DNA of 36,074 nucleotides from IMG/VR virus record IMGVR_UViG_3300035698_005894, positions 1-36,074 of that record. One strand, written 5' to 3'. The position numbers and the translations under genes are program-made. Shown in pieces: positions 21,410 through 35,339 of this stretch (positions are counted from its first letter, which is position 1; every line of letters begins with the position of its first letter). The notes beneath the pieces were generated by a model. That model was not told the DNA's origin. It saw only the letters and a list, made by a program, of their open reading frames with translations, and searched no databases. The stretch is from a virus.

Positions 21410-21444
21410 ATATTAACCTATTATGTCGTTTTTGTCAAACGTTA
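21410..21444 (-). promoter_or_regulatory. Leftward promoter/operator A (AACGTTTGACA box)
   Basis: On the minus strand: TAACGTTTGACA, with the -35 TTGACA at 21438-21433, a 17 bp spacer and TAATAT at 21415-21410. The operator half AAACGTTA (plus strand 21437-21444) is a one-base variant of AAACGTTT. It drives the RHH-like gene and sits just beyond the stop of the exonuclease gene. Confidence 0.7.
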
Positions 21445-21448
21445 TGAC

Positions 21449-22027
21449 TTACGATTTGCGCCTCATGGCGAAAAAAACGTCCTTACAAGCGCGCGTATCG
21501 ACCATTGCATCATGAGCTCCCTCGATATCCTCTCCAGTAAAGTGCTTTAATGCCTCAGCCAGACTTGGTGTTTTATAATGATATCTTCCCGCGGCTTTCA
21601 TTTTATCTGTTGGGGGAATACAGCAAATTTCCTTGCTGTTTTCTTGCGTGCAATACCATGGCTTTTGAACAGGCCGCTCTCCAGAGTGAGCCATCTCTAT
21701 ATCCATCATCCCTTTGTCGAAATTAGAGTTGTGGGCAACGATAGTTTGAGCTTTGTAAGCCATCTCATAATACATATTCATCATGACCTGACTTGGAAGC
21801 CCGTACATTTCACATTCTTGCTGGCTTATTCCGTGGCAATCATAGGCGCCATCAGAAATAATCCAACCTTCGGGTTTAATCAAATGGCTCATCTCAGCCA
21901 AAATACCGCCTTCATTATCAGTTAAGATCATGGCAATTTGGCAAACCCGGGCTTGCTTAGGCTGAACTAAAGCGCCAGATCTTTTAAACCCTGTTGTTTC
22001 CGTGTCTAAAAATAAATAATTTTCCAT
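21449..22027 (-). CDS. DnaQ-like 3'-5' exonuclease (DEDDh)
   Basis: A 192 aa nuclease with the three Exo motifs of the DEDDh class: LFLDTETTG (D8, E10), HNSNFDKGM (D104) and GAHDAMVDTRA (H172, D177). All catalytic residues are present. Such stand-alone phage exonucleases degrade or proofread single-stranded ends and pair with recombination or replication modules. It follows the SF2 helicase gene with a 12 bp gap and a good ribosome binding site (AAAGGAGAA). It is the last gene of the leftward replication operon. Confidence 0.9.
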   Translation of the reverse strand: MENYLFLDTETTGFKRSGALVQPKQARVCQIAMILTDNEGGILAEMSHLIKPEGWIISDGAYDCHGISQQECEMYGLPSQVMMNMYYEMAYKAQTIVAHNSNFDKGMMDIEMAHSGERPVQKPWYCTQENSKEICCIPPTDKMKAAGRYHYKTPSLAEALKHFTGEDIEGAHDAMVDTRACKDVFFAMRRKS

Positions 22028-22039
22028 TGTTTTTCTCCT

Positions 22040-23767
22040 TTAAAATGGGATTTCGTATTCTTCGTCTTCAATTTCCTGCGCCGTCTTAGGCTCTGGTTCT
22101 ACAAATTCTGGGAACTCATAATCAATTACTTCATAATATTTGCCCTTCTTCCTGATTAAAATCTTTGATGGCTGAGGATATTCTATATCTGAGGCGTCCC
22201 ATGCTGATTTAGGAACTGGCATATCTGGGAACCTCTCTTTGTGCCACTTTACAGCCATATCCCATGCGTATCTTTTGGGCTCCCCAGGCTCAGCGTGCCA
22301 GTGCTCAAAGCATATCCATTGCCTGATTGCGCCAGCCATTGTGGTATAAGTGACCTTCATTGACGGCTTCCAACTATCAGGGGTTTGATGCGTTCCCTGG
22401 TCCATGTGGAGAACATCCACCCATTCTGGTGGCTCATCCTTGCTCATAACCGCCTTATTGCTGGCTGTTTCGCTTATTTTTATGAAGCAATATGAGCAAG
22501 CATAGCAATATCTTTGAGCTGCAGCACACTCTGTACCGCATGAAGGGCATATTTTAGTGATAGCCTCTCCAATTTCATCACTCTCTTTTTCACCATTGTA
22601 GTCCTTAACGATAGAAACTTGGTCGATTGGTCCCAATGTCCCAACAACGTTACCAAAATCAAGAACCATACAATCTGGCTTCGTGCTGTTCGCGATAGCA
22701 TCAAGGCGACCTTGTTGTGTTTCGAGATCATATCCAGATGCGTAAACCACTCGAACACCGCGACCGATCATCTGGATATACAAAACAGGCGAGCGAGTTG
22801 GTCGCATAAAGGCGATCAAATCAATATTTGGATCGTTATATCCTGTCGTAAGCTTGGCAACATTAACAAGCGCAGTAAATTCTCCAGCCTTGTGCCGTCT
22901 TAAAATTTCATCATTTTCTTTGGCCGGCCTCTTGCTGTGAACATATTCTGCGCTAACGCCTGCTTCTTGTAATTTGCGAGTAACCTCTTCGGCGTGCTCA
23001 ATACCAGCGGTAAAAACTAACCACTTCTTTCGACCAGCGCCCTTTTCAACAAGCTCTTTGATACAAGGATCCGTCACCTCATCTTTGTTGATAGCCTCTT
23101 GAAGTTGCTTTTCAATATAATCACCCTTGCTTGTGCCAACTCCAGTGATATCCATCTTGGTGGCGATCTCTGGGCAAACTGGCTTAGCCCAATATCCTTG
23201 CTCAATCATGAAATCCATACTGATTTCATAAGCAACTTCATCGAATAATTTGTTTTCACCCTCATCAAGGCGACCTGTATCAGCTCTGAATGGCGTCCCT
23301 GTGTAGCCTATAACGCGACAATTAGGATTTATAGCCAGTACATCAGAAATAAACTTACGGTACTGTGTGCTGTCCTTATGGCTGATTAAATGGCATTCAT
23401 CGATTATTATGATCTCTGGGACGCGATTTATATTGCCCAACTTATTATTGATACTCTGTATGCTGGCGAAGGTTACATCGTTATGCAATCTCTTTTGTTT
23501 TAATCCAGCGCAATAAAAGCCCATATCCACATCTTTGTATTGTTCAAATAATTCCTCAGAATTTTGAACAAGCAATTCTTTTACGTGAGTAAGCATTACC
23601 ACGCGACAACGAGGAAAATACCCATGCAAAGCTCTAATGAAATTAGCGATCATTAAAGACTTCCCTGCCGCAACTGGTGCAACGACTAATGGGTGGCCTT
23701 TTTTTTCGAACAAGTACTTAAATAAGGATACTTCTGCTGCGTCTTGATAAGGGCGTAAAGTCTTCAT
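22040..23767 (-). CDS. SF2 DEAD/DECH-box helicase with zinc ribbon
   Basis: A 575 aa helicase of the UvsW/Type III restriction-Res type. N-terminal Q-like motif LRPYQDAA, Walker A APVAAGKS (30-37), motif Ia THVKELL, motif II DECH (about 123-126), motif III GYTGTPF, then the C-terminal domain with motif V/VI (TTGYNDPNIDLIAFMRP and QMIGRGVR). A four-cysteine zinc ribbon lies near 410-430 (CPSC ... CYAC plus C-x-x-x). Such proteins unwind or anneal branched DNA in phage recombination-dependent replication. It overlaps the upstream small gene by 4 bp (ATGA). No defects seen. Confidence 0.92.
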   Translation of the reverse strand: MKTLRPYQDAAEVSLFKYLFEKKGHPLVVAPVAAGKSLMIANFIRALHGYFPRCRVVMLTHVKELLVQNSEELFEQYKDVDMGFYCAGLKQKRLHNDVTFASIQSINNKLGNINRVPEIIIIDECHLISHKDSTQYRKFISDVLAINPNCRVIGYTGTPFRADTGRLDEGENKLFDEVAYEISMDFMIEQGYWAKPVCPEIATKMDITGVGTSKGDYIEKQLQEAINKDEVTDPCIKELVEKGAGRKKWLVFTAGIEHAEEVTRKLQEAGVSAEYVHSKRPAKENDEILRRHKAGEFTALVNVAKLTTGYNDPNIDLIAFMRPTRSPVLYIQMIGRGVRVVYASGYDLETQQGRLDAIANSTKPDCMVLDFGNVVGTLGPIDQVSIVKDYNGEKESDEIGEAITKICPSCGTECAAAQRYCYACSYCFIKISETASNKAVMSKDEPPEWVDVLHMDQGTHQTPDSWKPSMKVTYTTMAGAIRQWICFEHWHAEPGEPKRYAWDMAVKWHKERFPDMPVPKSAWDASDIEYPQPSKILIRKKGKYYEVIDYEFPEFVEPEPKTAQEIEDEEYEIPF

Positions 23768-23910
23768 TGGTTTTTCTCTCTATGCTTAATCGCCCGCAAT
23801 AAACGCCGCTCTTTGCGGTTTAACGGCCTGTTCTCAATCTCGGCTAGTTTAAGCGCGTAGTTGCGTTCTTCTTCGGTTTCTTCGTAGATGGGGAGGTCTT
23901 TTTGTGTCAT
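23764..23910 (-). CDS. Small basic hypothetical protein (48 aa)
   Basis: The longer frame opens at 23964, but the ATG at 23910 overlaps the TGA of a well-supported small gene (ATGA), so the start is placed there. The protein begins MTQKDLPIYEETEEE and is helical and charged, ending in a basic segment (RKERRLLRAIKHREKNQ). It overlaps the helicase start by 4 bp. Function unknown; perhaps an accessory of the helicase. Confidence 0.65.
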   Translation of the reverse strand: MTQKDLPIYEETEEERNYALKLAEIENRPLNRKERRLLRAIKHREKNQ

Positions 23911-24023
23911 TGGTTTTTCACAACGGTATAGCCTAACTCGTCCAGCTTTTTGAGCATGTCGCAAAAATCAGCCATGTCGTGTCCTTCATTTATCCAAGCT
24001 TCTAGTAAATCTAAATCAAGCAT
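23907..24023 (-). CDS. Very small hypothetical protein (38 aa)
   Basis: Translates to MLDLDLLEAWINEGHDMADF plus an amphipathic helix, ending in KNQ. A ribosome binding site (AAGGAGAAG) lies 4 bp before the ATG, and both ends overlap neighbours by ATGA-type junctions (stop 23907-23909, next ATG at 23910). The strong site and coupling make it a real gene despite its size. No known family. Confidence 0.7.
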   Translation of the reverse strand: MLDLDLLEAWINEGHDMADFCDMLKKLDELGYTVVKNQ

Positions 24024-24189
24024 CTTTCTTCTCCTTAACTTTCTTAATTTCTAACGTCACCTTGTTCTCAAAATCTTTTGAGTATTGGTAAAAATAATGG
24101 CTTGCCTCACTCAAAACGTATTGTTTTATGTCTCCTGTAACACTATCTTCTGTTAGCCCGTCCACTATTATTTTAGCTTCATACATCAT
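24016..24189 (-). CDS. Small hypothetical protein (57 aa)
   Basis: Starts MMYEAKIIVDGLTEDSV and ends in a Lys-rich tail (EIKKVKEKKDA). It overlaps the DUF551 gene upstream (stop TGA 24179-24181) and the 38 aa gene downstream, with start codon overlap. The pattern of alternating hydrophobic residues suggests a small beta-alpha fold. Function unknown. Confidence 0.65.
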   Translation of the reverse strand: MMYEAKIIVDGLTEDSVTGDIKQYVLSEASHYFYQYSKDFENKVTLEIKKVKEKKDA

Positions 24190-24544
24190 CGTGTCCTTTC
24201 GGTGCAGGCGGTAGGTGTTGCCATTTTGTTGGGTAAATTACATTTCCATACTCACTATCTAAATTTGCCCACCACCAATAATGCTCACCAAATTGATCCT
24301 TATTTAACGCCTCTCCTACGCAACCATCATAAAAAACAATAACGGGAATATTTGTCGGCGCACTCTCAATCGGTTGCCACCCCTTAGCATAGTCGGTTAG
24401 AGCGGTGCGGATTGTTTCGCCGTGATTGTTGTAAAGAATATCTAAAGCCTCAATATAGGCGTTTTCTAACTTTGGGTTGTAAGTTGCTTTAAGATCATCC
24501 AGTAAATCTAAACATTCTAAAGCATCGTCTGGGTTATGTGTCAT
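24179..24544 (-). CDS. DUF551-domain phage protein
   Basis: A 121 aa protein. The second half holds the DUF551 signature: W-Q-P-I-E-S-A-P ... P-V-I-V-F-Y ... P-T-K-W-Q-H-L-P-P-A-P. DUF551 proteins are frequent in phages and prophages, often between replication and small accessory genes; their function is unknown. The N-terminal helical part (about 1-55) is variable. The ATG overlaps the end of the upstream gene by 11 bp. Confidence 0.85.
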   Translation of the reverse strand: MTHNPDDALECLDLLDDLKATYNPKLENAYIEALDILYNNHGETIRTALTDYAKGWQPIESAPTNIPVIVFYDGCVGEALNKDQFGEHYWWWANLDSEYGNVIYPTKWQHLPPAPKGHDDV

Positions 24545-24980
24545 TGCTAAAATCTCCTTCGAGTAAGTATGTTTCTAATTCGCCAATAATATTGTCGCTC
24601 AAATCTTTTCTTTGATGGCAACTGCTATCACAGGGGAAACAACCACATTGGCGGTAGTCTTGCTTCATTTTCTTTAACTCACGCTCCAAAATCTCACGCG
24701 GAATAATAACGTGCGTGGCGGGCGTGGGGATTGTGTCATGTAATTCATCTAATTTTTTCAAACAATTTTGTTCAGTTTCCGTTATTAAATTCATACACTC
24801 CTGCACGTTATTAGGTATACGGTCTTTTCGGACATATTCTGTGGATGTGTCTTCTTGGCAATTTTTCGGAAGCCTTCTTAAAAAATCTTTTATGTCTCTT
24901 GTCCAAGCGTTTCCTTTTATAAATTCCCAAGCCCAAATAGTATCTGGCATATCTGTTTTCTGGTTGTCGTTATTTTTCAT
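24534..24980 (-). CDS. Hypothetical protein with W-A-W and EYVR motifs (148 aa)
   Basis: The start at 24980 (MKNNDNQKTD) is preferred to one at 25046 because GGGGAG lies just upstream and the ATG overlaps the TGA of the small membrane-protein gene. Early motif DTIWAWEFIKG and STEYVRKDRI match a loose family of phage proteins; the C-terminal half has a Cys cluster (CGCFPCDSSCH) that may bind metal. Function unknown. Confidence 0.7.
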   Translation of the reverse strand: MKNNDNQKTDMPDTIWAWEFIKGNAWTRDIKDFLRRLPKNCQEDTSTEYVRKDRIPNNVQECMNLITETEQNCLKKLDELHDTIPTPATHVIIPREILERELKKMKQDYRQCGCFPCDSSCHQRKDLSDNIIGELETYLLEGDFSNDT

Positions 24981-25144
24981 TTTCTCCCCACTTCCCAACA
25001 AATCATGGCTGTCATAAATAATACCCAACCAAGAATTTCCCACCAATTAAGTGGGAACTTCTCTGGTGCAAAAGCATACCCTGACAAGTTGACCGCCAAT
25101 GCAAAAGTACAAATCATCATCGTAATTAAAAACCACATACTCAT
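24977..25144 (-). CDS. Two-TM mini membrane protein (55 aa)
   Basis: Starts MSMWFLITMMICTFALAVN (TM1) and has a second hydrophobic stretch (NWWEILGWVLFMTAMIC). Stop TGA overlaps the next ATG (ATGA) and its own ATG overlaps the preceding TGA (25141-25143), so it is embedded in a coupled chain. Small two-TM early proteins can act in superinfection exclusion or host takeover; that is only a possibility here. Confidence 0.72.
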   Translation of the reverse strand: MSMWFLITMMICTFALAVNLSGYAFAPEKFPLNWWEILGWVLFMTAMICWEVGRK

Positions 25145-25278
25145 AATCTTTTTCCTTCACTACGTTTAATTAATTCATCGGCTGTATTTTCAGTACATAT
25201 ATATTCTTTGTACGGAACACCATTTAAGGGGCGCGTATTTATTTGTCCGCAATACATTTCTTTTGGCATTTTAGTCAT
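25141..25278 (-). CDS. Small hypothetical protein (45 aa)
   Basis: The start at 25278 (MTKMPKEMYCGQINTRP) is chosen because a GAAAGGAAT ribosome binding site precedes it and because it overlaps the nuclease stop by 8 bp. Two Cys and a K/R-rich end (ELIKRSEGKRL). No family recognised. Confidence 0.6.
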   Translation of the reverse strand: MTKMPKEMYCGQINTRPLNGVPYKEYICTENTADELIKRSEGKRL

Positions 25279-26035
25279 TGTGGCATTCCTTTCTAAAGTC
25301 ACAGAAGCGACATAAATAATAATCTGATTTTTCACTTAATTTTTTAGGCTCTTGAGTTGCATTTAATATTTTAACAGCTCTGTCATAAATGCGCTCAGCG
25401 TATGGGCCGTCATAATCTGTACGGCAACTGTCATATTTACGCGCGCCAGCATAAGAGACGGTCAAATAATGGCGATCTATTTGGACACCATCCAAACGAG
25501 CCATGTGCATATTCATCTGAGCTTGGCCATAATAGGTTTCGTCCCACTCTTTTAGAGCTTTCTTCTCACCCATTTTTGCTTTTGTTGTTTGGAAATTAAC
25601 AAACTTAGATTGGTCTTTGTCTTTATGCTCCCAGATATGAATAGCTTTTGGCGCCTGTATCAAGCCAAGAATTAACCCATCGAAGTGACCAGCCATTTTA
25701 CCAGTTTCGCCGCTCTCTAAAGCAATGTCGCGCTCCCAGCCGTATTGCTCACCATCAGCCATGTGCGTGTGGAGCTCAATAAATGGCAATAAACGAAGGC
25801 GCTCAGCTGTTTTGTCCTCAGCATAATATCCGCTTTCTGCGGCCATAGATCCGATTGCAGCCCACTTGCTTTTGCATTTTGGATAATTATTATAATTATA
25901 CCAGAGCTTGCGAGGGCATGGGTCGCCGACTTCAGAAGCTCCAAGGTAATTTCTCTGCTCAAATTTCTTTTGCTCAGCAACGGCAGCTATCATTGCATCA
26001 AGCGTAGGGTCTCCATGTTGGGGTATTGTGGCCAT
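25271..26035 (-). CDS. Cas4/RecB-like PD-(D/E)XK nuclease with Fe-S-type cysteines
   Basis: A 254 aa exonuclease-like protein. Core PD-(D/E)XK residues: H117-F-D119-G, then I-W-E136-H-K138, and a Gln-rich helix (Y-G-Q-A-Q-M-N). An N-terminal Cys (DPCPRKLWYN, C40) and C-terminal C-x-x-C-x5-C (YLCRFCDFRKEC, C242, C245, C251) give the four ligands of a Cas4/AddB-type iron-sulphur cluster. Such nucleases process 5' ends for phage strand annealing or recombination, and neighbours (DUF669, Sak4-like ATPase, SF2 helicase, DnaQ) fit this. No Cas1/Cas2 or repeats nearby, so it is not part of a CRISPR system. Confidence 0.85.
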   Translation of the reverse strand: MATIPQHGDPTLDAMIAAVAEQKKFEQRNYLGASEVGDPCPRKLWYNYNNYPKCKSKWAAIGSMAAESGYYAEDKTAERLRLLPFIELHTHMADGEQYGWERDIALESGETGKMAGHFDGLILGLIQAPKAIHIWEHKDKDQSKFVNFQTTKAKMGEKKALKEWDETYYGQAQMNMHMARLDGVQIDRHYLTVSYAGARKYDSCRTDYDGPYAERIYDRAVKILNATQEPKKLSEKSDYYLCRFCDFRKECHND

Positions 26036-26055
26036 AATATATCCTTTCTTTATGG

Positions 26056-26079
26056 CTGGCCTCTGTTTCCAAAGGCCAG
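26056..26079 (-). promoter_or_regulatory. Intergenic inverted repeat between DUF669 and nuclease genes
   Basis: CTGGCCT (26056-26062) and AGGCCAG (26073-26079), perfect 7 bp with a 10 nt loop. No T-run follows. It may be an RNA processing or attenuation hairpin that lets the DUF669 protein be made in excess of the nuclease. Confidence 0.4.
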
Positions 26080-26089
26080 ATTAAAGAAA

Positions 26090-26629
26090 TTATTTAGCGA
26101 ATGGGTTGCCGCCAGCTGGTTTATCAGCCTTTGCTTTTTCAGCCGCTGGTGCGGCCTCTTCTTCAGTGGCAGGAGTTTCTGCCGCTTCTGTTCCAGCAGG
26201 GGGCACGGCAAGATATTTCTTAATCTCGCTTTGCTCAGTGCCTTCTTGCTCAACGCCGTCATCATTTGTCCACGGGCTGCCTTTTTTGGCTTTAACCGCA
26301 ATCATCAATGGCTTGTTATGGAGCTCTGAGCTGTCAGCTGGGGTCTCTGTTTTATTAAGAGCCATACTGATTTTTGCCAATGTTCCATAAGCAATTTCAA
26401 CAGCTTTAGGGTTTTTGTTCACTAAGTTCAAACGCTCAGTAAGTTCAGTCCCTTTGTGCTCTCCAGCTGTGATTAGAACAGTCAAAGCAAGGAATTGCCC
26501 TTTTTTGTCCTTTGTCTGCACCATCTCGCTATTCACGATTAATGCCTTATACTGACCGTCAGGAATGAGGACACCGCCTCCGCCTGTATCGCAATCAGCT
26601 ACTTTTTTTACTTCGGGTAATGCAACCAT
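26090..26629 (-). CDS. DUF669 ssDNA-binding-like protein
   Basis: A 179 aa protein matching DUF669 (PF05037): G-x-Y-K-A-L-I-V-N-S-E-M at about 26-37, T-D/E-K-K-G-Q-F-L-A-L-T-V at 39-51 and G-T-L-A-K-I-S-M-A at about 82-90. The fold is thought to be OB-like. The tail is Ala/Pro/Glu-rich, disordered and ends in N-P-F-A-K; acidic disordered tails are a feature of phage single-stranded DNA-binding proteins. Sak4-type ATPases often lie beside such SSB-like proteins, as here. A ribosome binding site (AAGGAGAAA) precedes the ATG. Confidence 0.82.
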   Translation of the reverse strand: MVALPEVKKVADCDTGGGGVLIPDGQYKALIVNSEMVQTKDKKGQFLALTVLITAGEHKGTELTERLNLVNKNPKAVEIAYGTLAKISMALNKTETPADSSELHNKPLMIAVKAKKGSPWTNDDGVEQEGTEQSEIKKYLAVPPAGTEAAETPATEEEAAPAAEKAKADKPAGGNPFAK

Positions 26630-26644
26630 AATTTTTCTCCTTAT

Positions 26645-27331
26645 TTATGATTTAGTGATTTTGTTATGAATAACCTCTAAGTCAGGCGCCTCAAAACGTT
26701 CTAATGGATTTGGTTTCCCAAATTGAGTTCTAACGCCAACTTGATATTGGCTGTCAGGGTGGCATTGAAGAGAATAATAATCTTTATCGTCCTCTCCTTT
26801 TTCGCAGCGCGTGGCCATCACGGCTGAGAAATTATAGGGCAAGTCAGATTGTATCTTGTCCCAAGGCAAAGCCGCTCCAAATATCAATCCTCCAGTAATC
26901 TCGTCTTTCACTTGAGTTTGGCGAGCAACAGCAACCACGTTACACGGCAAGTTTTTAAACTTAGCGATAATATCAACGTAATTTGTCTCTAAATCCTTAT
27001 AGAGCTTAAACCCATCTTTGCTGTTTTCTTTTTTCAGATTGTTGAAGACCTTAGCCATCAAATCACTGATACTATCCAGATACAGCCACTTAGGGGTGAT
27101 TTCTCCGCTTGTGATAGCGTCCAAAACCTCAATAAATTCAGCGTATGTTTGCACGCTAACTGTATTAATATTTGCCCCATACAAGCTGTCTAAGTTATTT
27201 TCAGTATTTACAAGTAGCACCTCATCAGCAGGCAAGGTCGCCGCCAATAAGGTTTTACCTGTCTTTGTGCCACCAAAAATAAGATAGCTTTTTTTCTGGG
27301 TTGATCCATCTTTTGTGTTGGTAATATCCAT
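26645..27331 (-). CDS. Sak4-like RecA-core ATPase (AAA_24)
   Basis: A 228 aa protein from the ATG at 27331; the longer frame from 27538 only adds a shadow of the neighbouring gene. Walker A GGTKTGKT (20-27), a Walker B-like W-L-Y-L-D-S-I-S-D (about 88-96) and a sensor-like V-V-A-V-A-R-Q-T. This is the phage nucleotide-binding/AAA_24 family that includes Sak4 single-strand annealing ATPases. Neighbours DUF669, Cas4-like nuclease and a coiled-coil protein make a recombination module. Only a weak ribosome binding site (AGAAAG) is visible. Confidence 0.85.
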   Translation of the reverse strand: MDITNTKDGSTQKKSYLIFGGTKTGKTLLAATLPADEVLLVNTENNLDSLYGANINTVSVQTYAEFIEVLDAITSGEITPKWLYLDSISDLMAKVFNNLKKENSKDGFKLYKDLETNYVDIIAKFKNLPCNVVAVARQTQVKDEITGGLIFGAALPWDKIQSDLPYNFSAVMATRCEKGEDDKDYYSLQCHPDSQYQVGVRTQFGKPNPLERFEAPDLEVIHNKITKS

Positions 27332-27362
27332 TTTATTTTTCTTTCTGTTTCGGGAGGAACGG

Positions 27363-27809
27363 TTATTTGCGAGTAATCTCGATTTTTGGTTTGCCTGGCT
27401 CAACGCTACGCGCTGGCTCAAATACGGCCTGAATATCATCAGAGAAAGATTTGTATGCTGTTTCGGTAACAGATAATTTCTCCTTAATAAATTCATTCGG
27501 GTTTTGGCCACCATCGATGATTTGCTGACGAATAACAAACAACTGTTTCTCGTCCCATTTAACGCCTTTAGAGACAGTCACCTTAATCTTATGGCGACCT
27601 GTTTCAATATTTGACGTTCCGCAACCATAATCTTTTTCATCAAGATCTTTTGCTGCAAGCGTGGCGATTTCAGCATTAAGAAGACCGCTCATCTCGTTAC
27701 GTTTTTCTCTTAGCGCGCCAACTTTATCGGCGATTGTTTGCTCAAGAGCAAAAATTTCATCGTCAAGCTTATCAACTTGGCCGATCATTGTTTCAATATT
27801 TTTAGTCAT
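27363..27809 (-). CDS. Coiled-coil phage protein of recombination module
   Basis: A 148 aa protein with an N-terminal coiled coil (about 5-50) followed by a compact part: T-G-R-H-K-I-K-V-T-V-S-K-G-V-K-W-D-E, G-G-Q-N-P-N-E-F-I and a P-G-K-P-x-I-E-I end. This resembles a family of unnamed phage proteins found next to Sak4 and DUF669 genes. Partner role in recombination or replication is plausible; the biochemical activity is unknown. Its ATG overlaps the upstream gene by 8 bp. Confidence 0.7.
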   Translation of the reverse strand: MTKNIETMIGQVDKLDDEIFALEQTIADKVGALREKRNEMSGLLNAEIATLAAKDLDEKDYGCGTSNIETGRHKIKVTVSKGVKWDEKQLFVIRQQIIDGGQNPNEFIKEKLSVTETAYKSFSDDIQAVFEPARSVEPGKPKIEITRK

Positions 27810-27996
27810 TTTCTGTTGCTTTCTGTTCTATTGGGTTTTCTAATTTAATTAATTCAACGGTTCTAACGACCTTGAAATTCTTGTCCTCATCGAACTTTTC
27901 TTTCAGATTATTATATTTTACTTCTGCGTTATAGATGGACATAAATTCCTCATCTTCAACTATCGTGGTTCTCACAATATGGGCCTTCTGTTTCAT
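27802..27996 (-). CDS. Small hypothetical protein (64 aa), first gene of recombination operon
   Basis: A charged 64 aa protein starting MKQKAHIVRTTIVEDEE. It has an excellent ribosome binding site (GAGAGGA, 6-8 bp) and lies first behind promoter/operator B. No domain recognised. Confidence 0.7.
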   Translation of the reverse strand: MKQKAHIVRTTIVEDEEFMSIYNAEVKYNNLKEKFDEDKNFKVVRTVELIKLENPIEQKATEND

Positions 27997-28023
27997 TGCA
28001 TTTCCTCTCTAAGTGTTAAACTC

Positions 28024-28058
28024 ATTATTACATACGAAAAACGTTTTGTCAAACGTTT
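28024..28058 (-). promoter_or_regulatory. Leftward promoter/operator B (two AAACGTTT boxes)
   Basis: Minus strand: TTGACA (28052-28047), 17 bp spacer, AATAAT (28029-28024). Two perfect AAACGTTT palindromes lie at 28051-28058 and 28039-28046, 12 bp centre to centre; one abuts the -35 and one fills the spacer, so a bound repressor would block RNA polymerase. It should drive 27996 down to 21449. This is the best-conserved member of the four sites. Confidence 0.8.
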
Positions 28059-28060: not shown

Positions 28061-28267
28061 TTAATTTAATTCAATTATTTTTGAATGATAATTTTTGCAC
28101 ATACATTCACCGAGCGTTAATATTTCTTTCGGCGTCATAAGGGCAAGATCTGTTTTACCAATCTCTGTAGAATACTCTGCTGCCATCTGAATGCCGTATA
28201 AATAAGCTTCTTTTTGATCGTCTTCCATATTAGTTTTATCCTCTGGGTTGTTGGTTATGTTTCTCAT
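28061..28267 (-). CDS. Small hypothetical protein (68 aa)
   Basis: Starts at 28267 in an ATGA overlap with the preceding gene; an internal ATG at 28228 has its own AGAGGA site and may be the true start (MEDDQKEAYLYG). Central motif GIQMAAEYSTEIGKTDLALM. It ends just before promoter B, closing the primase operon. Function unknown. Confidence 0.6.
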   Translation of the reverse strand: MRNITNNPEDKTNMEDDQKEAYLYGIQMAAEYSTEIGKTDLALMTPKEILTLGECMCKNYHSKIIELN

Positions 28268-28431: not shown

Positions 28432-28853
28432 TATTTCACCTCCTTAATAAATATTTCCATACGTGGGTTTTTTCGATCAATGCCTGCATGGAAAAAATCA
28501 GGCGTTAAAACTTTTCTGTAATCATCATCTATTAAAATGCCCTGTTTAATTAGAGCGTCACACGCGAATTTATCATGCACCGATAATATATTCATGCGGT
28601 CATAAGAGCGCGCAGTCGCTGGATAATAATAATAAGAAAACTTAACAGGATTTTGAAATGGAAATATTTCACCTTCCTCGTTCAAATTAAATTTACTTAT
28701 CATATCATTGTATGCCTCTTTAGTATCAGACAACAAACTCCAGTGGGCATTGCGATATTTATTAAGGTTCATAATAAATTTCTTCTTCTTGTCTATCTGA
28801 ATAAACAGAGGCACGGCGAAGAACAAATCAAATTCTATTTTAGAGCGATCCAT
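28431..28853 (-). CDS. RusA-like Holliday junction resolvase
   Basis: A 140 aa protein whose second half has the RusA layout: D-R-M-N-I-L-S-V-H-D-K-F-A-C-D-A-L, then G-I-L-I-D-D-D-Y-R-K-V and a final M-E-I-F-I-K-E strand. The Asp residues (in DRMN, HDKF and the DDD run) would form the metal site. The N-terminal strand reads M-N-L-N-K-Y-R-N-A-H-W. RusA enzymes resolve four-way junctions before packaging. It overlaps the primase-helicase stop by 19 bp. Sequence is divergent, so a profile or structure comparison is desirable. Confidence 0.7.
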   Translation of the reverse strand: MDRSKIEFDLFFAVPLFIQIDKKKKFIMNLNKYRNAHWSLLSDTKEAYNDMISKFNLNEEGEIFPFQNPVKFSYYYYPATARSYDRMNILSVHDKFACDALIKQGILIDDDYRKVLTPDFFHAGIDRKNPRMEIFIKEVK

Positions 28854-31156
28854 TTTGTGCTCGGTCTCCCGCCCCCTTCAGATTGGTATGGTTCATCTCC
28901 TGCAAGCTCTGCATCTTTCAGAGATTGCATTATTTCTTTAAGCTCGCGCGTTTTATGTTGGGAATATGGTGGATTTTTCTGCATATCCGCCCAAGTAATC
29001 CCAGCCTCTCCACGCTCTCGCAAGTCAGCCAGGATTTCTTTCTTGTTGGCTTCGTGCTCAGAGTGAGAGATTGTGAATTTCAGCTTATCTGTTGTTTTAA
29101 TGAGAGAGGTTCTCATGTAGTCGATTGCCCAATCCATAGAATGTTTCCCGATAGATTTAGCATCAGGGTTTTCAGACAAGGCGTGAATGAGAGCTATTCT
29201 CATTGCCTCCTCGTTGGTACGCCCGACAAGCCCATCCATGCTGTATTTTCTGAGGTTTTTTCTTATTACGAGAAGCTCTTTTTGAAATTCTATTTGCGCG
29301 TTATCCGCCTCTTTTGTGAAAGGGATCACAACTTCTTTGGCTGGCTCTCCCGCTATATATTGAGCTTTATTTCTCGCCATGACGGCTGACGCCCACTTGA
29401 TAATTGTATCAGGAACTGCAACTGGCTCTTTATGGCGCCGAATATCTGGCTCAGCATCTGATATATTAATCACGAACCTATTTATAAAGCCGTCTTTAAC
29501 AGATCCTATGTCGATCGCGCTGAAGAATGTTGATGGCGTTGTCATTGCAAGCCATGTGATAGCAGGATTATGCGCCAATCTGTTCTTAATATTATCAGCA
29601 TCTCCCTTTTTCATCGTCATAGATGAATAGTTTTTAGGGCGAACGATACCTTCACAACGACCAAAGCACTCCATTAATGTTGTGTTAGCCTCGCGCTGAT
29701 TGTTGTTCCCAGCGGATTTACTCATTGCTGCCTCAAGATAGCGACCTAATTCATCCGTACAAACTCCATGTTTTGGTCTGTCCAACAATGTGGACATTAC
29801 AGCACCAGCACTTGTATATCCGTCACCTGCCAGAAAATGCCCATTATTTGTTTTATACAGGATTTTCTCAAAGACTGTTTTTGCGTGCTCTTTACCTGTG
29901 GCTGTCTCTCCAACATTAAGGAAGAATAGGGAAGTGTAATTATTATAATTTGTTTTATAAATTCTTCCTAAGATCAGAGAACAACATGCAAGGGCTGTCT
30001 GAATAGCAAACCCTTGTTGATTGTTCCCGCTCGTCACGTTGTAATAATCAAAGATATCTCCTAATACTCCAGACGGTCTAGATATAATGCTTTCATCATC
30101 CCCTTTGGATGGTTCATAGGCTTCGAGTTGGTCGTTGCATAATAATTTGGTAACGGCTTCAATTCCAAGATCGGCGTGCATGTCGTTGAAGTCATTAAAG
30201 CCGATAGGGAAGATGGCTTCGATACCGAGCCCCTCAGCGGTTTGCTCAGCTTTATTTCTTCCAGCATTTTCAAGGGTTTCTGTATCATCATCTCCAGCGA
30301 TGACCACTCGTCTATCCATATATTCGTTTCTAACGTAACTGGACACTTCATATAAGTTTCCAGCATTCCATGCAACATAGACTGTTTTCCCTGTCGCCTG
30401 CCACACACTATGAGCTGTCGAGTACCCTTCTGCGATATAGATGACATCTGTTTCTCCTTCAATTACGAACCACCCGCCTTTAAGTTTTCCGCCTGTTAAA
30501 AATCTCTTCTCGCCATCACCATCAATGAATTGGAGCGAGGTTATTTCTTTATCGACCGCGATCGGCACAACAATGCGACCGTCTTTAGCGATTTTAACGC
30601 CCTCTGAAGCCTCTATTCCTTTTTTGGTTAGATATGGGTGTGAAACAGCTTGCTCTGCATTGTCCCATATCTCAAAGGCGATAACGGCTGCTTTTTCTTG
30701 GCGTTCTCTTTCTTCAATTTCACGCTCAACCTTCATAGCCTCACGTTTTGCATGATAACTGGCGCGCTCCGATGTATTCATCTGGTGCTCTGAACGGCTA
30801 ACCCAACTGTCTTGAATGCCCATCTTCCAATCGCCATAAGAGGCAATACCGATGATCGCGCCATCGTTTTGATCGTCTTCAAGTTCGTTGTAAATATACC
30901 ATGCTGAATTTTTACCGCGCTTATCGTCCGCTCCATCAATTCTATCGAGCTTGCCGATCATAAGCTGGCGCGGGGTTGTGAACCCTTCGGCGCTCAGTAC
31001 AGCAAGAAACGCCGAACGAGGATCGGAGCATACGGTAGGCATAGAGCCTATTACCGCGTCAATTCCTGCTTTATGTGGTGTTAAATCTACCAATGAGTTC
31101 TCTGCTTTCTCTCTCTGCGTTAAAAAATTTGACGGTCTGTCGCAGAGACAACACAA
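28835..31156 (-). CDS. Toprim primase fused to DUF3987-type helicase
   Basis: A 773 aa replication protein. Residues about 30-190 resemble the N-terminal part of TraC-like plasmid/phage primases (H-P-Y-L-T-K-K-G-I at 173-181). A Toprim domain spans about 235-335 (I-A-E-G-Y-S-T-A, VAWNAGNL, IAGDDD, F-N-D-M). A helicase-like ATPase follows with Walker A GETATGKE (416-423) and C-T-D-E-L (466-470). No zinc finger of the DnaG type is clear; the first residues CCLCD may be spurious. The start is uncertain: TTG at 31156 lacks a ribosome binding site and follows a C6 run, with an in-frame TGA just upstream; a TTG at residue 22 is an alternative. The only replicative enzyme seen in the window. Confidence 0.87.
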   Translation of the reverse strand: MCCLCDRPSNFLTQREKAENSLVDLTPHKAGIDAVIGSMPTVCSDPRSAFLAVLSAEGFTTPRQLMIGKLDRIDGADDKRGKNSAWYIYNELEDDQNDGAIIGIASYGDWKMGIQDSWVSRSEHQMNTSERASYHAKREAMKVEREIEERERQEKAAVIAFEIWDNAEQAVSHPYLTKKGIEASEGVKIAKDGRIVVPIAVDKEITSLQFIDGDGEKRFLTGGKLKGGWFVIEGETDVIYIAEGYSTAHSVWQATGKTVYVAWNAGNLYEVSSYVRNEYMDRRVVIAGDDDTETLENAGRNKAEQTAEGLGIEAIFPIGFNDFNDMHADLGIEAVTKLLCNDQLEAYEPSKGDDESIISRPSGVLGDIFDYYNVTSGNNQQGFAIQTALACCSLILGRIYKTNYNNYTSLFFLNVGETATGKEHAKTVFEKILYKTNNGHFLAGDGYTSAGAVMSTLLDRPKHGVCTDELGRYLEAAMSKSAGNNNQREANTTLMECFGRCEGIVRPKNYSSMTMKKGDADNIKNRLAHNPAITWLAMTTPSTFFSAIDIGSVKDGFINRFVINISDAEPDIRRHKEPVAVPDTIIKWASAVMARNKAQYIAGEPAKEVVIPFTKEADNAQIEFQKELLVIRKNLRKYSMDGLVGRTNEEAMRIALIHALSENPDAKSIGKHSMDWAIDYMRTSLIKTTDKLKFTISHSEHEANKKEILADLRERGEAGITWADMQKNPPYSQHKTRELKEIMQSLKDAELAGDEPYQSEGGGRPSTKWIALK

Positions 31157-31195
31157 GGGGGGAGATCAATCCCGACCGCCAGAAAAGTAAACTAT

Positions 31196-31223
31196 ATTAT
31201 TATTTACGTTTTGTCAAACGTTT
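31196..31223 (-). promoter_or_regulatory. Leftward promoter/operator C
   Basis: Minus strand AAAACGTTTGACA, -35 at 31217-31212, with AAACGTTT at 31216-31223 and a degenerate second box TTACGTTT at 31204-31211 (same 12 bp spacing as operator B). The -10 is less clear: TATAGT lies 15 bp and TAGTTT 17 bp downstream of the -35. It precedes the primase-helicase gene and follows the methyltransferase vestige. Confidence 0.65.
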
Positions 31224-31236
31224 TATAGGCATGTTT

Positions 31237-31347: not shown

Positions 31348-31348
31348 T

Positions 31349-31774
31349 TTAAGCTCCGTTTCTTATTTTTCTTAAAAATTCTTTAGGAAATTGTAGGTTT
31401 TGTTCTATCGTTGCCCTGCTCAGCTCTCTAGCAAATTGCTTGCCCCGCTCTGCCTCCTCAATAGCCATAGACAACGCTTTTTCTACGTCTTGAGGGACAA
31501 TAGCATACCCGCTTGCCCACCCGCATGGCTCAGCATTTCCAAGCCTCCTTACGTCTTGGCTGTCAAAAACTAAGTGCAATCTCTGGTCAATATCATCGCA
31601 CTTATACATTTCCCACTTGCTCGGGTCTTGTTTAATAAGCTTCTCCGCTTCGTCTTTTTCAAAGCGGTGTGCTCCTGTAATGTAGGCGGTATATCCCCCT
31701 CCATTCTTGCCATACCACACGAAGCTATTTCCCAGATACCCAGCGTCTTTGTTTCTAATATAAAATTTTTCCAT
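31349..31774 (-). CDS. Hypothetical protein (141 aa)
   Basis: Begins MEKFYIRNKDAGYLGNSFVW. The N-terminal part is rich in G/Y/W and ends with a segment A-H-R-F-E-K-D-E-A-E-K-L-I; a final helical region contains an Ala/Glu/Arg-rich stretch. Proteins starting with F-Y-I-x-N-x-x-x-G-Y-x-G-N are common small phage products of unknown role. Good ribosome binding site (AAGGAGAGA). Confidence 0.7.
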   Translation of the reverse strand: MEKFYIRNKDAGYLGNSFVWYGKNGGGYTAYITGAHRFEKDEAEKLIKQDPSKWEMYKCDDIDQRLHLVFDSQDVRRLGNAEPCGWASGYAIVPQDVEKALSMAIEEAERGKQFARELSRATIEQNLQFPKEFLRKIRNGA

Positions 31775-31786
31775 TTTGATCTCTCC

Positions 31787-32203
31787 TTAAAATATTGTTA
31801 TGCCATCGAGGTGGTCGATTTCATGTTGAATGACGCGCGCCTCAAAGCCTCTGAATTTTTGTGACTTAATACCGCCGATATGGTTCATCCATTGGACAGT
31901 GATCTGTTTATGGCGTTGGACATTTGTTGTCGGCACGCCCTCTTCCCAAGATAAACAGCCTTCTTCGCTATTCATCATCTGCTCAGATTTCTTTAAAATC
32001 ACTGGATTAATCATTGGCTTCTTAAAATTGGACGTATTTATCAAGATAATGCGTGATTTCAATCCAACTTGGTTGGCTGCAAGTCCACAACCGTTCGCGT
32101 ATTGATGCAGGACGCCCCACATTTCCATGATATCGATGTTTGCCTGGTCCAAATCCGTAACTTCCTCACAAATTTGGTATAATGTATCGTTGGTTATTTC
32201 CAT
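31787..32203 (-). CDS. def: Peptide deformylase
   Basis: A 138 aa enzyme that removes the N-formyl group from nascent proteins. All three motifs are present: GCGLAANQ (38-45, motif 1), EGCLS (81-86, zinc Cys83) and QHEIDHLDG (126-134, zinc H127/H131, catalytic E128). It lacks the long C-terminal helix of bacterial forms, as is usual in phage deformylases. The ATG at 32203 is preferred: the longer start at 32239 lies inside the terminator hairpin. Marine phage deformylases have been shown to be active and to favour host photosynthetic or phage proteins; the role here is unknown. Confidence 0.93.
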   Translation of the reverse strand: MEITNDTLYQICEEVTDLDQANIDIMEMWGVLHQYANGCGLAANQVGLKSRIILINTSNFKKPMINPVILKKSEQMMNSEEGCLSWEEGVPTTNVQRHKQITVQWMNHIGGIKSQKFRGFEARVIQHEIDHLDGITIF

Positions 32204-32225
32204 TGTTATACTTTCTTTTTGGTTG

Positions 32226-32261
32226 AAAAATCGCCCCATATAGCCTTACACAGGGCGATTT
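32226..32261 (-). terminator. Leftward terminator or attenuator before the deformylase gene
   Basis: Minus-strand stem AAATCGCCC (32261-32253) and GGGCGATTT (32236-32228), 16 nt loop, then further T residues (five in all with the stem). It sits 3 bp after the stop of the 187 aa gene and 23 bp before the deformylase ATG with no room for a promoter, so it acts within the operon. Confidence 0.8.
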
Positions 32262-32263
32262 GT

Positions 32264-32827
32264 TTATTTAATGCCTAAACGCTCGTTTAGTCTGCTCATG
32301 CGGATTGCTGGCAAGCGTACCGCTGCAGGATCAGCAATGTGAGCGGGTAAAAAAGGTTCGGCTTCTGGCCATAGCTCTAATAGTTGCTTGGTAGTGTTAA
32401 CACTGTAAAGAACGGCGTTTGTTTCTCTCTCAAGCTCGCTTTTGTCTTTGTTCCATTTAATGTGTGCGTCTTTAATTTTATCATATTTAGAAAACGCGCG
32501 ATCTGTATCATCGATTGAAAACAAAACAGGCTGATTATATCGAGAGCCTTTGAAGTTTGTCGGCATTTCTTCGCCCTTTAAAAAGTCAAAGCGCATAACC
32601 TCGCTATTAACAGTTATTTGAACGCAGTCTGTTTTTCTAATAAAATCAGAATAAGCAAAGTCAAGAACGGCTTTTCCTTGCTTGCCGTGGTGCTTCTTCC
32701 AAATATACATAGCCATGTCATGCTCGGCTTGCTTGATTGTTGGCTCTGGCGTTACCTCCTTCCATTGTCTCATAACACTGGCGGAAATATCGTCACGCAT
32801 TGCATTTGTTAAGTTTGTTGATTTCAT
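32264..32827 (-). CDS. Phage protein resembling Nmad5-type modification-associated domain
   Basis: A 187 aa protein with N-terminal T-N-L-T-N-A-M-R-D-D-I-S and a C-terminal motif K-Q-L-L-E-L-W-P-E-A-E-P-F-L-P followed by V-R-L-P-A-I-R-M-S-R-L-N-E-R-L-G. The latter resembles phage proteins I recall as putative nucleotide modification associated domain 5 (Nmad5). That link is weak memory. If right, the protein would connect to base modification, which the nearby methyltransferase vestige also hints at. No catalytic residues can be assigned. Confidence 0.5.
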   Translation of the reverse strand: MKSTNLTNAMRDDISASVMRQWKEVTPEPTIKQAEHDMAMYIWKKHHGKQGKAVLDFAYSDFIRKTDCVQITVNSEVMRFDFLKGEEMPTNFKGSRYNQPVLFSIDDTDRAFSKYDKIKDAHIKWNKDKSELERETNAVLYSVNTTKQLLELWPEAEPFLPAHIADPAAVRLPAIRMSRLNERLGIK

Positions 32828-33012
32828 AATTTTGGTCTTTCTATTTTGGTTATCGGATATTTTAAAATATTAGCGGTCTTAAAATCTCTTGTGAATTTAA
32901 GAAGCTCGCCTTTTTTGGTTTTGCTGTCAAATATTACATGACATCCAATCCAAACTTGCTCATATGGCCTTGATGCAACAACTTTCGCCGTTACAATATC
33001 AACCTGTTCCAA
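32824..33012 (-). CDS. Small hypothetical protein, start unclear
   Basis: The 62 aa frame shown opens with a TTG at 33012 (L-E-Q-V-D-I-V) that lacks a spaced ribosome binding site. In-frame codons upstream also read well (D-F-L-E-W-D) but hold no start. An ATG at 33036-33038 would join this frame if one C were added to its CCC, so a one-base loss is possible. The body has a strand-rich look (C-H-V-I-F-D-S-K-T-K-K-G). Stop overlaps the next ATG. Confidence 0.55.
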   Translation of the reverse strand: MEQVDIVTAKVVASRPYEQVWIGCHVIFDSKTKKGELLKFTRDFKTANILKYPITKIERPKL

Positions 33013-33019
33013 GTCCCAT

Positions 33020-33403
33020 TCAAGGAAATCTAGGGCATATAAATGATTTTATGTGCGTTTCTAAGTGCTTGCTCTCCAGTTCCGCACAATTATAAACATC
33101 TTGCGCGTGTGCTTGTGCCTCTGAGTAGAAAGCGCGGTAAATCTCTTCTAATGAAAAGATAAAGCCATCTATCTTGAATAGAAACTCATCTAATGCGTCA
33201 GCATTTCCAATATAGGCTTCTAAATCATTATAAACCGCATATAATTCATCAAATTTATTCGGGGTTGTGCATCCAGTAAATTTAAAAGTAGCCTCATTGA
33301 TATCGATTGTAAAATCAAACCAATTTAAATTTTGAGTGTCAATGCTTCCAACTGAAAACTCCAGCTGGCGCAATACAAGTTCCTTTGCTTCTGTCATATA
33401 CAT
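33020..33403 (-). CDS. Hypothetical protein (127 aa)
   Basis: An acidic 127 aa protein (MYMTEAKELVLRQLEFSVGS) with a helical C-terminus. Ribosome binding site AAGGAG lies 11 bp before the first ATG and inside the last codons of the upstream broken gene, so the two were translationally linked. No recognised domain. Confidence 0.65.
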   Translation of the reverse strand: MYMTEAKELVLRQLEFSVGSIDTQNLNWFDFTIDINEATFKFTGCTTPNKFDELYAVYNDLEAYIGNADALDEFLFKIDGFIFSLEEIYRAFYSEAQAHAQDVYNCAELESKHLETHIKSFICPRFP

Positions 33404-33404
33404 A

Positions 33405-33603
33405 TTATTTTATCTCCTTAAGTTGGTATTTCTTGCCATCAATTTCAATGGTCTTGTCGTTACAAGCAATATCTGGTGCAGTAACATCAATGCCCGATAT
33501 CTCTTTAAACACCTTTGCGTCAAAGTTAGGTAATTCTAATAATAACGCCTTGTCTTCTTCGGTTGCATTATCATAAGATTTTTGAAACGCTTCCTTTATT
33601 CAT
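33405..33603 (-). pseudogene. Small gene broken by a one-base insertion
   Basis: The ATG at 33603 overlaps the upstream stop (TAATG), but its frame stops after ten codons. From about 33592 another frame reads E-A-F-Q-K-S-Y-D-N-A-T-E-E-D-K-A, then L-P-N-F-D-A-K-V-F-K-E-I-S-G-I-D-V, and ends K-Y-Q-L-K-E-I-K at 33405. The length is 199 nt, one more than 66 codons; removing one G of the AAAGGAAG string (33593-33594) restores MNKEAF and a 65 aa protein. The L-P-N-F-D-x-x-x-F-x-E-I-(S/T)-G segment is a conserved phage motif of unknown role. Either a real frameshift or a sequencing error. Confidence 0.7.
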
Positions 33604-33704
33604 TATATTAGTTCTCCCATTTGAATGGTTGACCCATCAAGATTGATAGGCAACACATAAATTTTGTCAAAGTCTTTTTCTATTAATTCTATTTCATAAG
33701 TCAT
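33603..33704 (-). CDS. Very small hypothetical protein (33 aa, possibly 56)
   Basis: From the ATG at 33704: MTYEIELIEKDFDKIYVLPI, ending M-G-E-L-I. The stop TAA overlaps the ATG of the broken gene. An in-frame GTG at 33773 would add 23 residues beginning M-S-R-C-G-G-L-L-A-C-N-N-A-G, including a hairpin-forming GC-rich stretch; no ribosome binding site supports it. Coding is supported mainly by coupling. Confidence 0.5.
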   Translation of the reverse strand: MTYEIELIEKDFDKIYVLPINLDGSTIQMGELI

Positions 33705-33754
33705 TTTATAATCTTTCTCTGTTTTTGATTGTCCTGCATTATTACAGGCTAGTA

Positions 33755-33770
33755 AGCCGCCGCAACGGCT
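33755..33770 (-). other. Local GC-rich hairpin in AT-rich surroundings
   Basis: AGCCG (33755-33759) and CGGCT (33766-33770) enclose CCGCAA. A second short inverted repeat CCTG/CAGG (33733-33736 with 33745-33748) lies beside it. No T-run; could be an RNA processing site or part of the extended reading frame from GTG 33773. Confidence 0.4.
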
Positions 33771-33783
33771 CACAGGTCTATAA

Positions 33784-34662
33784 TTATACTTCTATAGCTT
33801 CCAAAGTTGGCCTTACATAATGGTTAAAGCTAAAAACTGCATTATTTGTAAGCTGTCTTTGCCATGCGCCCTTGCTCGGCGCCCATTTAAAGGCGTTCTT
33901 TTTTAAAACTGCGCGTATATCATCACTTGGCTTTCCATCAAAGAATATTTGCAATCGCATATCGTCATTATTTTCGACAACCTTAATGCCGTTGATCTCA
34001 ATTTCTGCACTTGGCTTTTCTTTTCTTGCCTCAAGTCCTGATAACCGCCCCTCTAGCCTTTTTATATCTGCGCGGCTATTTGTAAGCGAAAACCCTGAAA
34101 AACCAACACCGCCAAAACAATCTGGCTTTTGAATTTCCTTAGCTCTTTCCTCGTTGCCTAACAATTCAATTAATTTGGCTTCGTCTATAGGCTTCTTGCG
34201 CATGACTTTATTAACGGCAATCATTGTATTATGGGCCTTTGTTTGGACCTCAATTTTAGATTTAAGGCGCTCTATTGCATCATTATCACCAGCCATAATT
34301 GGGCGCGCCTGCGGGTTAGCTTCATAATATGCTTCTTTTTTTGCGTATTTCACAATTTTATTGAAATAATCAATCGACACACTGCCTGCTGTTCTTTCGT
34401 ATTCATTATTTTTATCATTGCGCGCACTTGGAAAATTAGCAGGTCCAGTAATCATTGAAGACATGCAACGGCTTTTTGCCTGCATGTGCTTCAACCATAA
34501 GCCCTCATATTTATCTATTTTAGCTTGTGGGATTTCTAAATCATTAAGGTCTTTTATTGCATCGTCAAAGTAAGTGCATTCCATATCTGCGCGCTTATCA
34601 GGTGAAAAGCTTGTGCCATAGTGTGCGCGTTTTGCTGTTTCATAGTGCTTATGATCTTTCAT
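33784..34662 (-). CDS. Polyvalent-type phage/plasmid protein (292 aa)
   Basis: The centre holds S-R-C-M-S-S-M-I-T-G-P-A-N-F-P-S-A-R-N, a motif I know from large phage and plasmid proteins of unknown role (M-I-T-G-P-A-x-F-P-x-A-R-N). The C-terminal 60 residues read K-P-S-D-D-I-R-A-V-L-K-K-N-A-F-K-W-A-P-S-K, then G-A-W-Q-R-Q-L-T-N-N-A, a domain also seen at the ends of plasmid and phage accessory proteins. A coiled coil lies near 190-225. Related proteins often sit among anti-restriction genes, so a role in early host defence evasion is possible but unproved. Confidence 0.7.
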   Translation of the reverse strand: MKDHKHYETAKRAHYGTSFSPDKRADMECTYFDDAIKDLNDLEIPQAKIDKYEGLWLKHMQAKSRCMSSMITGPANFPSARNDKNNEYERTAGSVSIDYFNKIVKYAKKEAYYEANPQARPIMAGDNDAIERLKSKIEVQTKAHNTMIAVNKVMRKKPIDEAKLIELLGNEERAKEIQKPDCFGGVGFSGFSLTNSRADIKRLEGRLSGLEARKEKPSAEIEINGIKVVENNDDMRLQIFFDGKPSDDIRAVLKKNAFKWAPSKGAWQRQLTNNAVFSFNHYVRPTLEAIEV

Positions 34663-34688
34663 TGTTTTATTTCCTTCTTTTGGTTTGG

Positions 34689-34855
34689 TTAAACTGGCTT
34701 TTTATTTATAATATCAAGGCCGCATTGTCCCAGCGCTTTATTATATTTATCAGTATAAAACGGGATCAGGTCTTTATCGCTTGCGGGTATAGCTTCAATT
34801 AATTCCAGCGTTTCCCCCCTAGGCTCATGCCGTAGTTGTTTTCTAGTGTTCTCAT
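34689..34855 (-). pseudogene. Small gene split at a G6 run: frameshift or programmed slip
   Basis: The ATG at 34855 opens M-R-T-L-E-N-N-Y-G-M-S-L-G-G and stops at 34799. After the GGGGGG run (34819-34814 on the minus strand) the -1 frame continues as E-T-L-E-L-I-E-A-I-P-A-S-D-K-D to N-K-K-P-V at 34689. One more G, or a -1 ribosomal slip on the run, joins both parts into a natural-looking 55 aa protein. Total length is 167 nt, one short of 56 codons. It may be a real mutation, a homopolymer error or recoding. Confidence 0.65.
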
Positions 34856-34859
34856 GTTC

Positions 34860-35060
34860 TTAACTTTCTATTTTGATTTTTTGTTGTGCGTCATAAAATT
34901 GGGTGCTTGTAAAATTCCCGCTCTGTACTTTTACCATTGGCTTATCTTCTCTATTAACCCAATCAATCCAATCTATGCGGGTTCTAAAGTTTTGGCCTGT
35001 TGGGGTTTTAGTCAAAATTATATCATTTCTTTTTAATTGTGTGGCTGTGATAGTTCTCAT
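34860..35060 (-). CDS. Small basic hypothetical protein (66 aa)
   Basis: Begins MRTITATQLKRNDIILTKTP; reads as a small beta-barrel-like protein (L-K-R-N-D-I-I-L-T, F-R-T-R-I-D-W-I-D-W-V). A ribosome binding site (GAAAGGG) precedes the ATG. Its stop is followed after 4 bp by the ATG of the split gene. Function unknown. Confidence 0.7.
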   Translation of the reverse strand: MRTITATQLKRNDIILTKTPTGQNFRTRIDWIDWVNREDKPMVKVQSGNFTSTQFYDAQQKIKIES

Positions 35061-35081
35061 TATTTTAACCCTTTCAAGGTT

Positions 35082-35204
35082 TTATAATCCTGCATTAAGA
35101 TACGCTTGCAATGCGTATGCGCCGTCATAAGTAAAGTTAGTGTGATCCATTGCTTTAAGGTCATGGAATAGTGAGCCTGAATTTATTGTTTTGATTAGTG
35201 TCAT
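35082..35204 (-). CDS. Very small early protein (40 aa), first leftward gene
   Basis: Begins MTLIKTINSGSLFHDLKAMD; then F-T-Y-D-G-A-Y-A-L-Q-A-Y-L. The F-(T/S)-Y-x-G-A-x-A-L-x-x-Y-L pattern is known to me from longer phage and plasmid early proteins, so this looks like a minimal or truncated member. An AGAGGA ribosome binding site lies 10 bp upstream and promoter D further on. Function unknown. Confidence 0.7.
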   Translation of the reverse strand: MTLIKTINSGSLFHDLKAMDHTNFTYDGAYALQAYLNAGL

Positions 35205-35271
35205 TTGTTTTAATCCTCTGTAAGTGTTGATTTGTTTAACTATTAATAGAGTAACACGAATAAATTAAACT

Positions 35272-35339
35272 TGTCAAACGTTTTGTTTAACAAAATGTAT
35301 AACAAAACGTTTGACATTATATAATAGATATGAGAATAT
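35272..35339. promoter_or_regulatory. Divergent promoter/operator D (early control region)
   Basis: A perfect 16 bp inverted repeat, TGTCAAACGTTTTGTT (35272-35287) and AACAAAACGTTTGACA (35301-35316), with 13 bp between. Each arm holds AAACGTTT and a TTGACA -35 box facing outward. Rightward: TTGACA 35311-35316, 17 bp, then GAATAT (35334-35339) with a TG two bases before it (extended -10). Leftward: -35 at 35277-35272 with a weaker TACTCT -10 about 18 bp on. A degenerate third box AAATGTAT sits at 35293-35300. The layout is that of a lambda-like early switch. Confidence 0.8.

Follow-up and report, generated by a model that had tools for sequence, protein, structure and literature searches.

What does an 11-nucleotide sequence do at the heads of five units in a single viral genome? 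The 11-mer, AACGTTTGACA, recurs in IMG/VR virus record IMGVR_UViG_3300035698_005894, positions 1 to 36,074 of which form the stretch analyzed here (the window). The initial annotation read it as a promoter/operator that wires all early operons. Is it a promoter element, an operator, or both, and what would bind it? Sequence comparisons argue that the sites are very probably a common phage operator and that this operator probably acts by repression, while a small putative ribbon-helix-helix (RHH) protein encoded at 21195-21389 has an even chance of being the regulator. The reading as a whole, in which operators of one phage regulator lie in the -35 boxes of early host-type promoters that the RHH protein would shut down, seems to us slightly favored.

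Five exact sites at unit heads

The window holds five exact copies of AACGTTTGACA, each where it had first been reported and none elsewhere; they are listed here with the -10 elements of sites 1 and 2:

21433-21443, minus strand: site 1; -35 TTGACA at 21438-21433, dyad CGTTTTTGTCAAACG at 21427-21441
21410-21415, minus strand: -10 of site 1, TAATAT, with a 17 bp spacer
28047-28057, minus strand: site 2; two AAACGTTT 12 bp apart (28039-28046 and 28051-28058), dyad at 28042-28055
28024-28029, minus strand: -10 of site 2, AATAAT, with a 17 bp spacer and TG ahead
31212-31222, minus strand: site 3, heading the primase unit; dyad at 31207-31220
35272-35282, minus strand: site 4, leftward arm of a divergent pair; full dyad TTAAACA-AAA-CGTTTGA at 35290-35274
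35306-35316, plus strand: site 5, rightward arm of the divergent pair

The two arms of the divergent pair form an inverted repeat (35272-35292/35296-35316) with 90% complementarity.

Could such a set arise by chance? All five copies are intergenic, with none in coding sequence, against an intergenic share of 5.4% of the window (p about 4.5e-7). AACGTTTGACA is the only 11-mer in the window that reaches five copies, a count of at least five being attained by any 11-mer in two of 60 shuffled windows, and the sequence read backwards contains no exact copy of the pattern. With two mismatches permitted, 14 matches were found versus 11.5 expected, no excess over chance; the signal therefore resides in exact, sharply defined sites. 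In a weight matrix derived from the five copies, they score 30-35 bits; the next match, at 17.5 bits, is a degenerate copy within the 35272-35316 cluster.

The initial annotation had also placed a TTGACA -35 box inside each site, and this is borne out: of 18 exact TTGACA in the window, the five that are intergenic are these sites, while the 13 in coding sequence have no AACG ahead. The unit layout likewise agrees with it, four leftward units and one rightward unit having a site at their head, and the region upstream of the capsid gene, examined over 7276-7501, lacks the site as had been proposed.

A larger predicted operator in related podoviruses

Is the 11-mer the whole element? We compared 17 records, the window included, chosen by related terminase or replication genes; the relatives are uncultured podoviruses with terminase identity mostly of 62-70%. 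Their operator is a 17-bp dyad, TYAAACA-N3-YGTTTGA, followed by CA, and the right half plus CA yields the TTGACA of the -35 box. By this comparison the window's 11-mer is the right half of a larger predicted operator. The original view of the 11-mer as a shared promoter/operator holds in that site and -35 box are fused, but the 11-mer is only half of the operator. Exact dyads number 11 across the 17 records versus 0.05 expected, as strand counts in which palindromic sites are counted twice; one exact dyad, at 1340 (minus strand) in G010, lies inside an open reading frame (ORF) and was left out of the promoter tally. In the window the right half is exact at every site, whereas the left half is exact at 35272, near at 28047 and 35306, and decayed at 21433 and 31212. 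At 21433, 28047, and 31212 a second AAACG stands downstream and forms a dyad around GACA.

Clean dyads occur in G006 (39.5 kb), for example TGTCAAACAAATTGTTTGACA at 35081-35101, and in G007 (TCAAACATTTTGTTTGA and TCAAACAAAGTGTTTGA). At the gene boundary of window site 28047, where the window reads AACAAAACGTTT-GACAAAACGTTT, the matching promoters are AACAAAGTGTTT-GACAACGTGTAA in L107 and AACAAAATGTTT-GACAAAGTGTTT in L121. All three keep the 12-bp tandem and differ in the center letters. In G001 (L111 2211-2604), GTGTAAACA occurs eight times, in both orientations, within the intergenic region matching the window's divergent cluster, and nowhere else in 21.5 kb. The sites at G006 25675 and G007 23856 also have TGTAAACA as their left half.

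A search of 1.36 Mb of bacterial genome sequence, comprising 80 terminase-bearing loci of more distant kinship, gave no dyad plus CA; the operator was therefore found in nearer relatives only. Two other search patterns were set aside. AAACGTTT, considered as the operator core, has six copies, one of them within a gene, and is not kept by the relatives; a scan of viral contigs with ACAAAACGTTTGACA returned 101 stretches, and the matches listed, one per assorted contig, were judged mostly chance.

Are the relatives' sites at corresponding places? Sites stand at matching positions at the heads of replication and recombination units; this conservation, like the purely intergenic placement in the window, is what the initial annotation had named as support. 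G006 has them at the primase unit (31902, minus), in both directions in the divergent region by p292 (35086, minus; 35096, plus), and at the unit of its RHH gene (22367, minus); G007 at the primase unit (18140, plus) and ahead of two more units; and G013 at the primase unit and one further. The matching heads are those of the primase, Sak4/phrog_2480, divergent-region, and RHH units, and in G002, G004, G006, G007, and G013 sites head matching units despite differing early genes. Identity to the window's primase is only 26-33%, over part of the protein, for the primases of G006, G007, and G013; the control site therefore persists while the genes behind it change. This constancy of the operator among differing primases and recombination genes suggests that a common control tag is retained when genes of the early region are swapped.

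Promoter evidence and probable mode of action

Are the sites promoters? The sites were hand-picked where TTTGACA stood at a unit head or outside coding sequence; the -10 signal played no part in the choice and was profiled afterwards by spacer length. Similarity to a -10 hexamer is highest at a 17-bp spacer (3.25/6 versus about 2 at other spacers), with p<5e-5 in the relatives and 0.05 in the window alone. As a group, the sites show the sigma-70-type arrangement, in which TTGACA is followed at 16-18 bp by a TATAAT-like hexamer, and as a group they appear to be promoter elements with an operator fused to the -35 box. Singly, only 21438 and 28052 among the window sites have a good -10 at 16-18 bp.

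Could the 11-mer be simply a strong host -35 box with a favored upstream extension, or the site of a host protein, with no phage regulator at all? TTGACA matches the sigma-70 consensus, and every site used from the relatives contains GTTTGACA. A -35 box leaves unexplained, however, why conserved letters extend 10-12 bp upstream as a dyad, and the dyad or tandem form is preserved from one relative to another despite changes in the center letters. We consider this explanation improbable.

Little weight, in our view, also falls on activation or replication, in which a bound protein would help polymerase onto weak promoters or the divergent cluster would serve as an origin. Several -10 elements are poor, and the GTGTAAACA copies packed into the G001 intergenic region resemble an iteron array. 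Yet total overlap with the -35 box suits occlusion better than activation, and an origin would not account for lone sites that head units far from the cluster. Repression by a common phage operator is the mode we favor with some confidence. The statement of the initial annotation that a bound protein must block transcription goes further and is not established, having been drawn from the -35 overlap.

A candidate regulator

Which protein would bind the operator? The best candidate is the following gene, which lies behind its own site-bearing promoter and is the window's only Arc-like match:

21195-21389, minus strand: candidate regulator, 64 residues, probably Arc-like RHH; first gene behind site 1

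The protein (RGIRISDEDW...VTASDIVRFAGSEFL) has an RHH-like look. Its match to the Arc-like family phrog_6506 is weak (E=0.12 in the library search and 0.006 in a six-frame search, where it was the window's only match). Searches of phages, plasmids, viral contigs, bacterial genomes, and the PDB found no credible homologue of the 21195 protein. Its positional homologue in G006, recognized only by eye, pattern, and position, matches phrog_6506 at 1.2e-4 and, six-frame, 4.5e-6. The two proteins share RGIRxSxExW, and each gene sits behind a site. The 21195 protein is likely an RHH family member. Arc acts in the immI region of P22.

Several observations weigh against this assignment and the wider reading. 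Taken alone, the window protein's family match is weak, and Pfam and PDB sequence searches with it were blank. A single-sequence monomer model of low confidence (predicted local distance difference test, pLDDT, 67) has helices at 15-32, 38-45, and 48-59 and no visible strand, and a fold search with it gave no usable match. G007 and G013 have a different Arc-like gene beside the divergent region. Among the promoters, the remaining three of the window have poor -10 elements (3/6 matches at best), and the G006 RHH-unit site (22367, minus) also has no good -10 (3/6).

Might another protein bind the same operator and repress from it? A second Arc-like protein could be encoded in an unsequenced segment beside the divergent region, leaving the 21195 protein to control its own unit only, as anti-CRISPR-associated regulators do. 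Arc-like phrog_582 genes lie beside the divergent region in G007 (14711-14866) and G013 (6501-6746), a possible Arc-like gene does so in G006 (35938-36198), and the window's contig ends within the stretch where such a gene would sit. The G006 homologue of the 21195 gene also shares a unit with a phrog_1761 ORF that has a weak Acb2/Tad1 hairpin match. On the other side, a second Arc-like gene is absent from window 35317-36074 and from the matching stretch of G001, and a full site stands in the promoter of the 21195 gene itself. We judge this alternative rather unlikely, though it is the main rival.

The G006 ORF just mentioned (L140 977-1213, minus strand; 78 residues) matches phrog_1761 at 9e-29 and is possibly an anti-defense gene.

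Proposed course of infection

How would the 21195 protein act as the regulator? Host polymerase would read the sigma-70-type, site-bearing promoters after infection, and the units behind them, for replication, recombination, and accessory functions, would be early. Among the early products would be the small Arc-like RHH protein, made from its own operator-bearing promoter. As it accumulated, it would fill the operators and hide the -35 boxes, so that five promoters, its own included, would be turned down together in a self-limiting shut-off. Host polymerase would then be freed for the structural genes, the capsid promoter region being devoid of a site. We infer the 21195 protein as binder, repression over activation, and the timing. 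That one regulator controls the complete early program, as initially proposed, is not established, nor is the early status of the rightward unit; the latter is an assumption, because in G001, G006, and G013 the same direction leads on to the terminase genes.

Does the scheme extend to the podovirus family? We tentatively suggest, with somewhat less than even confidence, that one RHH protein with an operator on the -35 box of every early unit is common to it, the operator serving as a plug-in tag that is kept while early genes swap and whose sequence drifts with the repressor. For an uncultured podovirus family that yielded no RNA polymerase gene here, the sites provide a testable regulon with a named candidate regulator. 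The operator may also help separate early from late units by sequence alone.

Comparison with known systems

The nearest functional parallel appears to be Gp5.7 of T7, a 7-kDa protein that represses the early host-polymerase promoters A1-A3 via the consensus -35 region (PMC5569994). As in the scheme above, a small phage protein acts at the -35 box of early host-polymerase promoters in a lytic podovirus (PMC5569994). The likeness, drawn from the description in PMC5569994, is functional only: Gp5.7 is winged-helix-turn-helix-like and binds RNA polymerase, and the available part of that account describes no dedicated dyad operator, whereas here a dyad operator is paired with an RHH-like candidate.

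In L5 and other cluster A mycobacteriophages, one repressor uses 20-30 asymmetric sites, most away from promoters and some within the early lytic promoter (PMC6550527). A single phage protein and a genome-repeated site whose sequence diverges among relatives, in L5-type phages together with the repressor, are points of resemblance (PMC6550527). Those phages are temperate, however; the window has no integrase match among the proteins scanned, and in place of 20-30 stoperators mostly off promoters it has five dyad sites, all intergenic at unit heads. A lambda-type repressor was not seen either, HTH_3 (PF01381) having no match in the eight records searched, of which the window is itself incomplete.

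The viral RHH proteins SvtR and AvtR bind several sites on the viral genome, and SvtR represses its own promoter (PMC5569661). Their sites are imperfect inverted repeats, a likeness to the operator described here, but they act on archaeal promoters (PMC5569661), while the present site forms one element with the -35 box at several early unit heads. Among the papers searched, no direct precedent turned up for a virulent phage whose early promoters are controlled by an RHH protein. The type of control is already known; its layout in this phage would be a new example.

Units behind the sites and genome layout

The units of sites 2 to 5 are as follows:

21449-27996, minus strand: unit behind site 2; 64-residue ORF, phrog_2480, Sak4, SSB, Cas4-type exonuclease, helicase, exonuclease subunit
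28061-31156, minus strand: unit behind site 3; primase, RusA, small ORFs, DUF6511
31349-35060, minus strand: unit behind site 4; 66-residue ORF, p292 (phrog_6744/19458), Nmad5, peptide deformylase, others
35385-36074, plus strand: unit behind site 5; small ORFs, continuing past the contig end

The rightward block of the window carries terminase, connector, capsid, and tail genes; the leftward block carries primase, RusA, Sak4, SSB, Cas4-type exonuclease, helicase, and exonuclease. Low-identity similarity of the connector suggests a podovirus of the Pelagibacter type. No RNA polymerase matched among the window proteins scanned. The 36-kb record is given as linear, with its left edge cutting an open frame and its right end open. 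It is probably incomplete, and the segment with the small terminase gene that is present in relatives is probably missing from it. Both contig ends (1-240 and 35967-36074) lie in open frames that do not join in frame.

An Rfam scan of the window gave no matches. Between site 3 and the primase, the leader (31130-31190, minus strand) is kept in L107 at 20-90, as GGCGGTCGG-A-TGATC..., and GGTC/GACC pairing as a hairpin is possible in it; the L107 primase frame lacks ATG, GTG, and TTG near its conserved start. The region upstream of the capsid gene (7276-7501) shows a terminator-like hairpin with a T run, followed by the stretch devoid of a site; the hairpin, AAAGGTCGG...CCGACCTTTTT at 7312-7342, lies directly ahead of the gene's upstream region. 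More distant terminase relatives (L156-L235, roughly 41-49% identity) occur often in genome bins of Gastranaerophilales and a few times in alphaproteobacterial ones, a possible host hint for the wider group. Within the unit behind site 4, the genes for peptide deformylase and the Nmad5 nucleotide-modification-associated protein are adjacent (31787-32239 and 32264-32827, minus strand).
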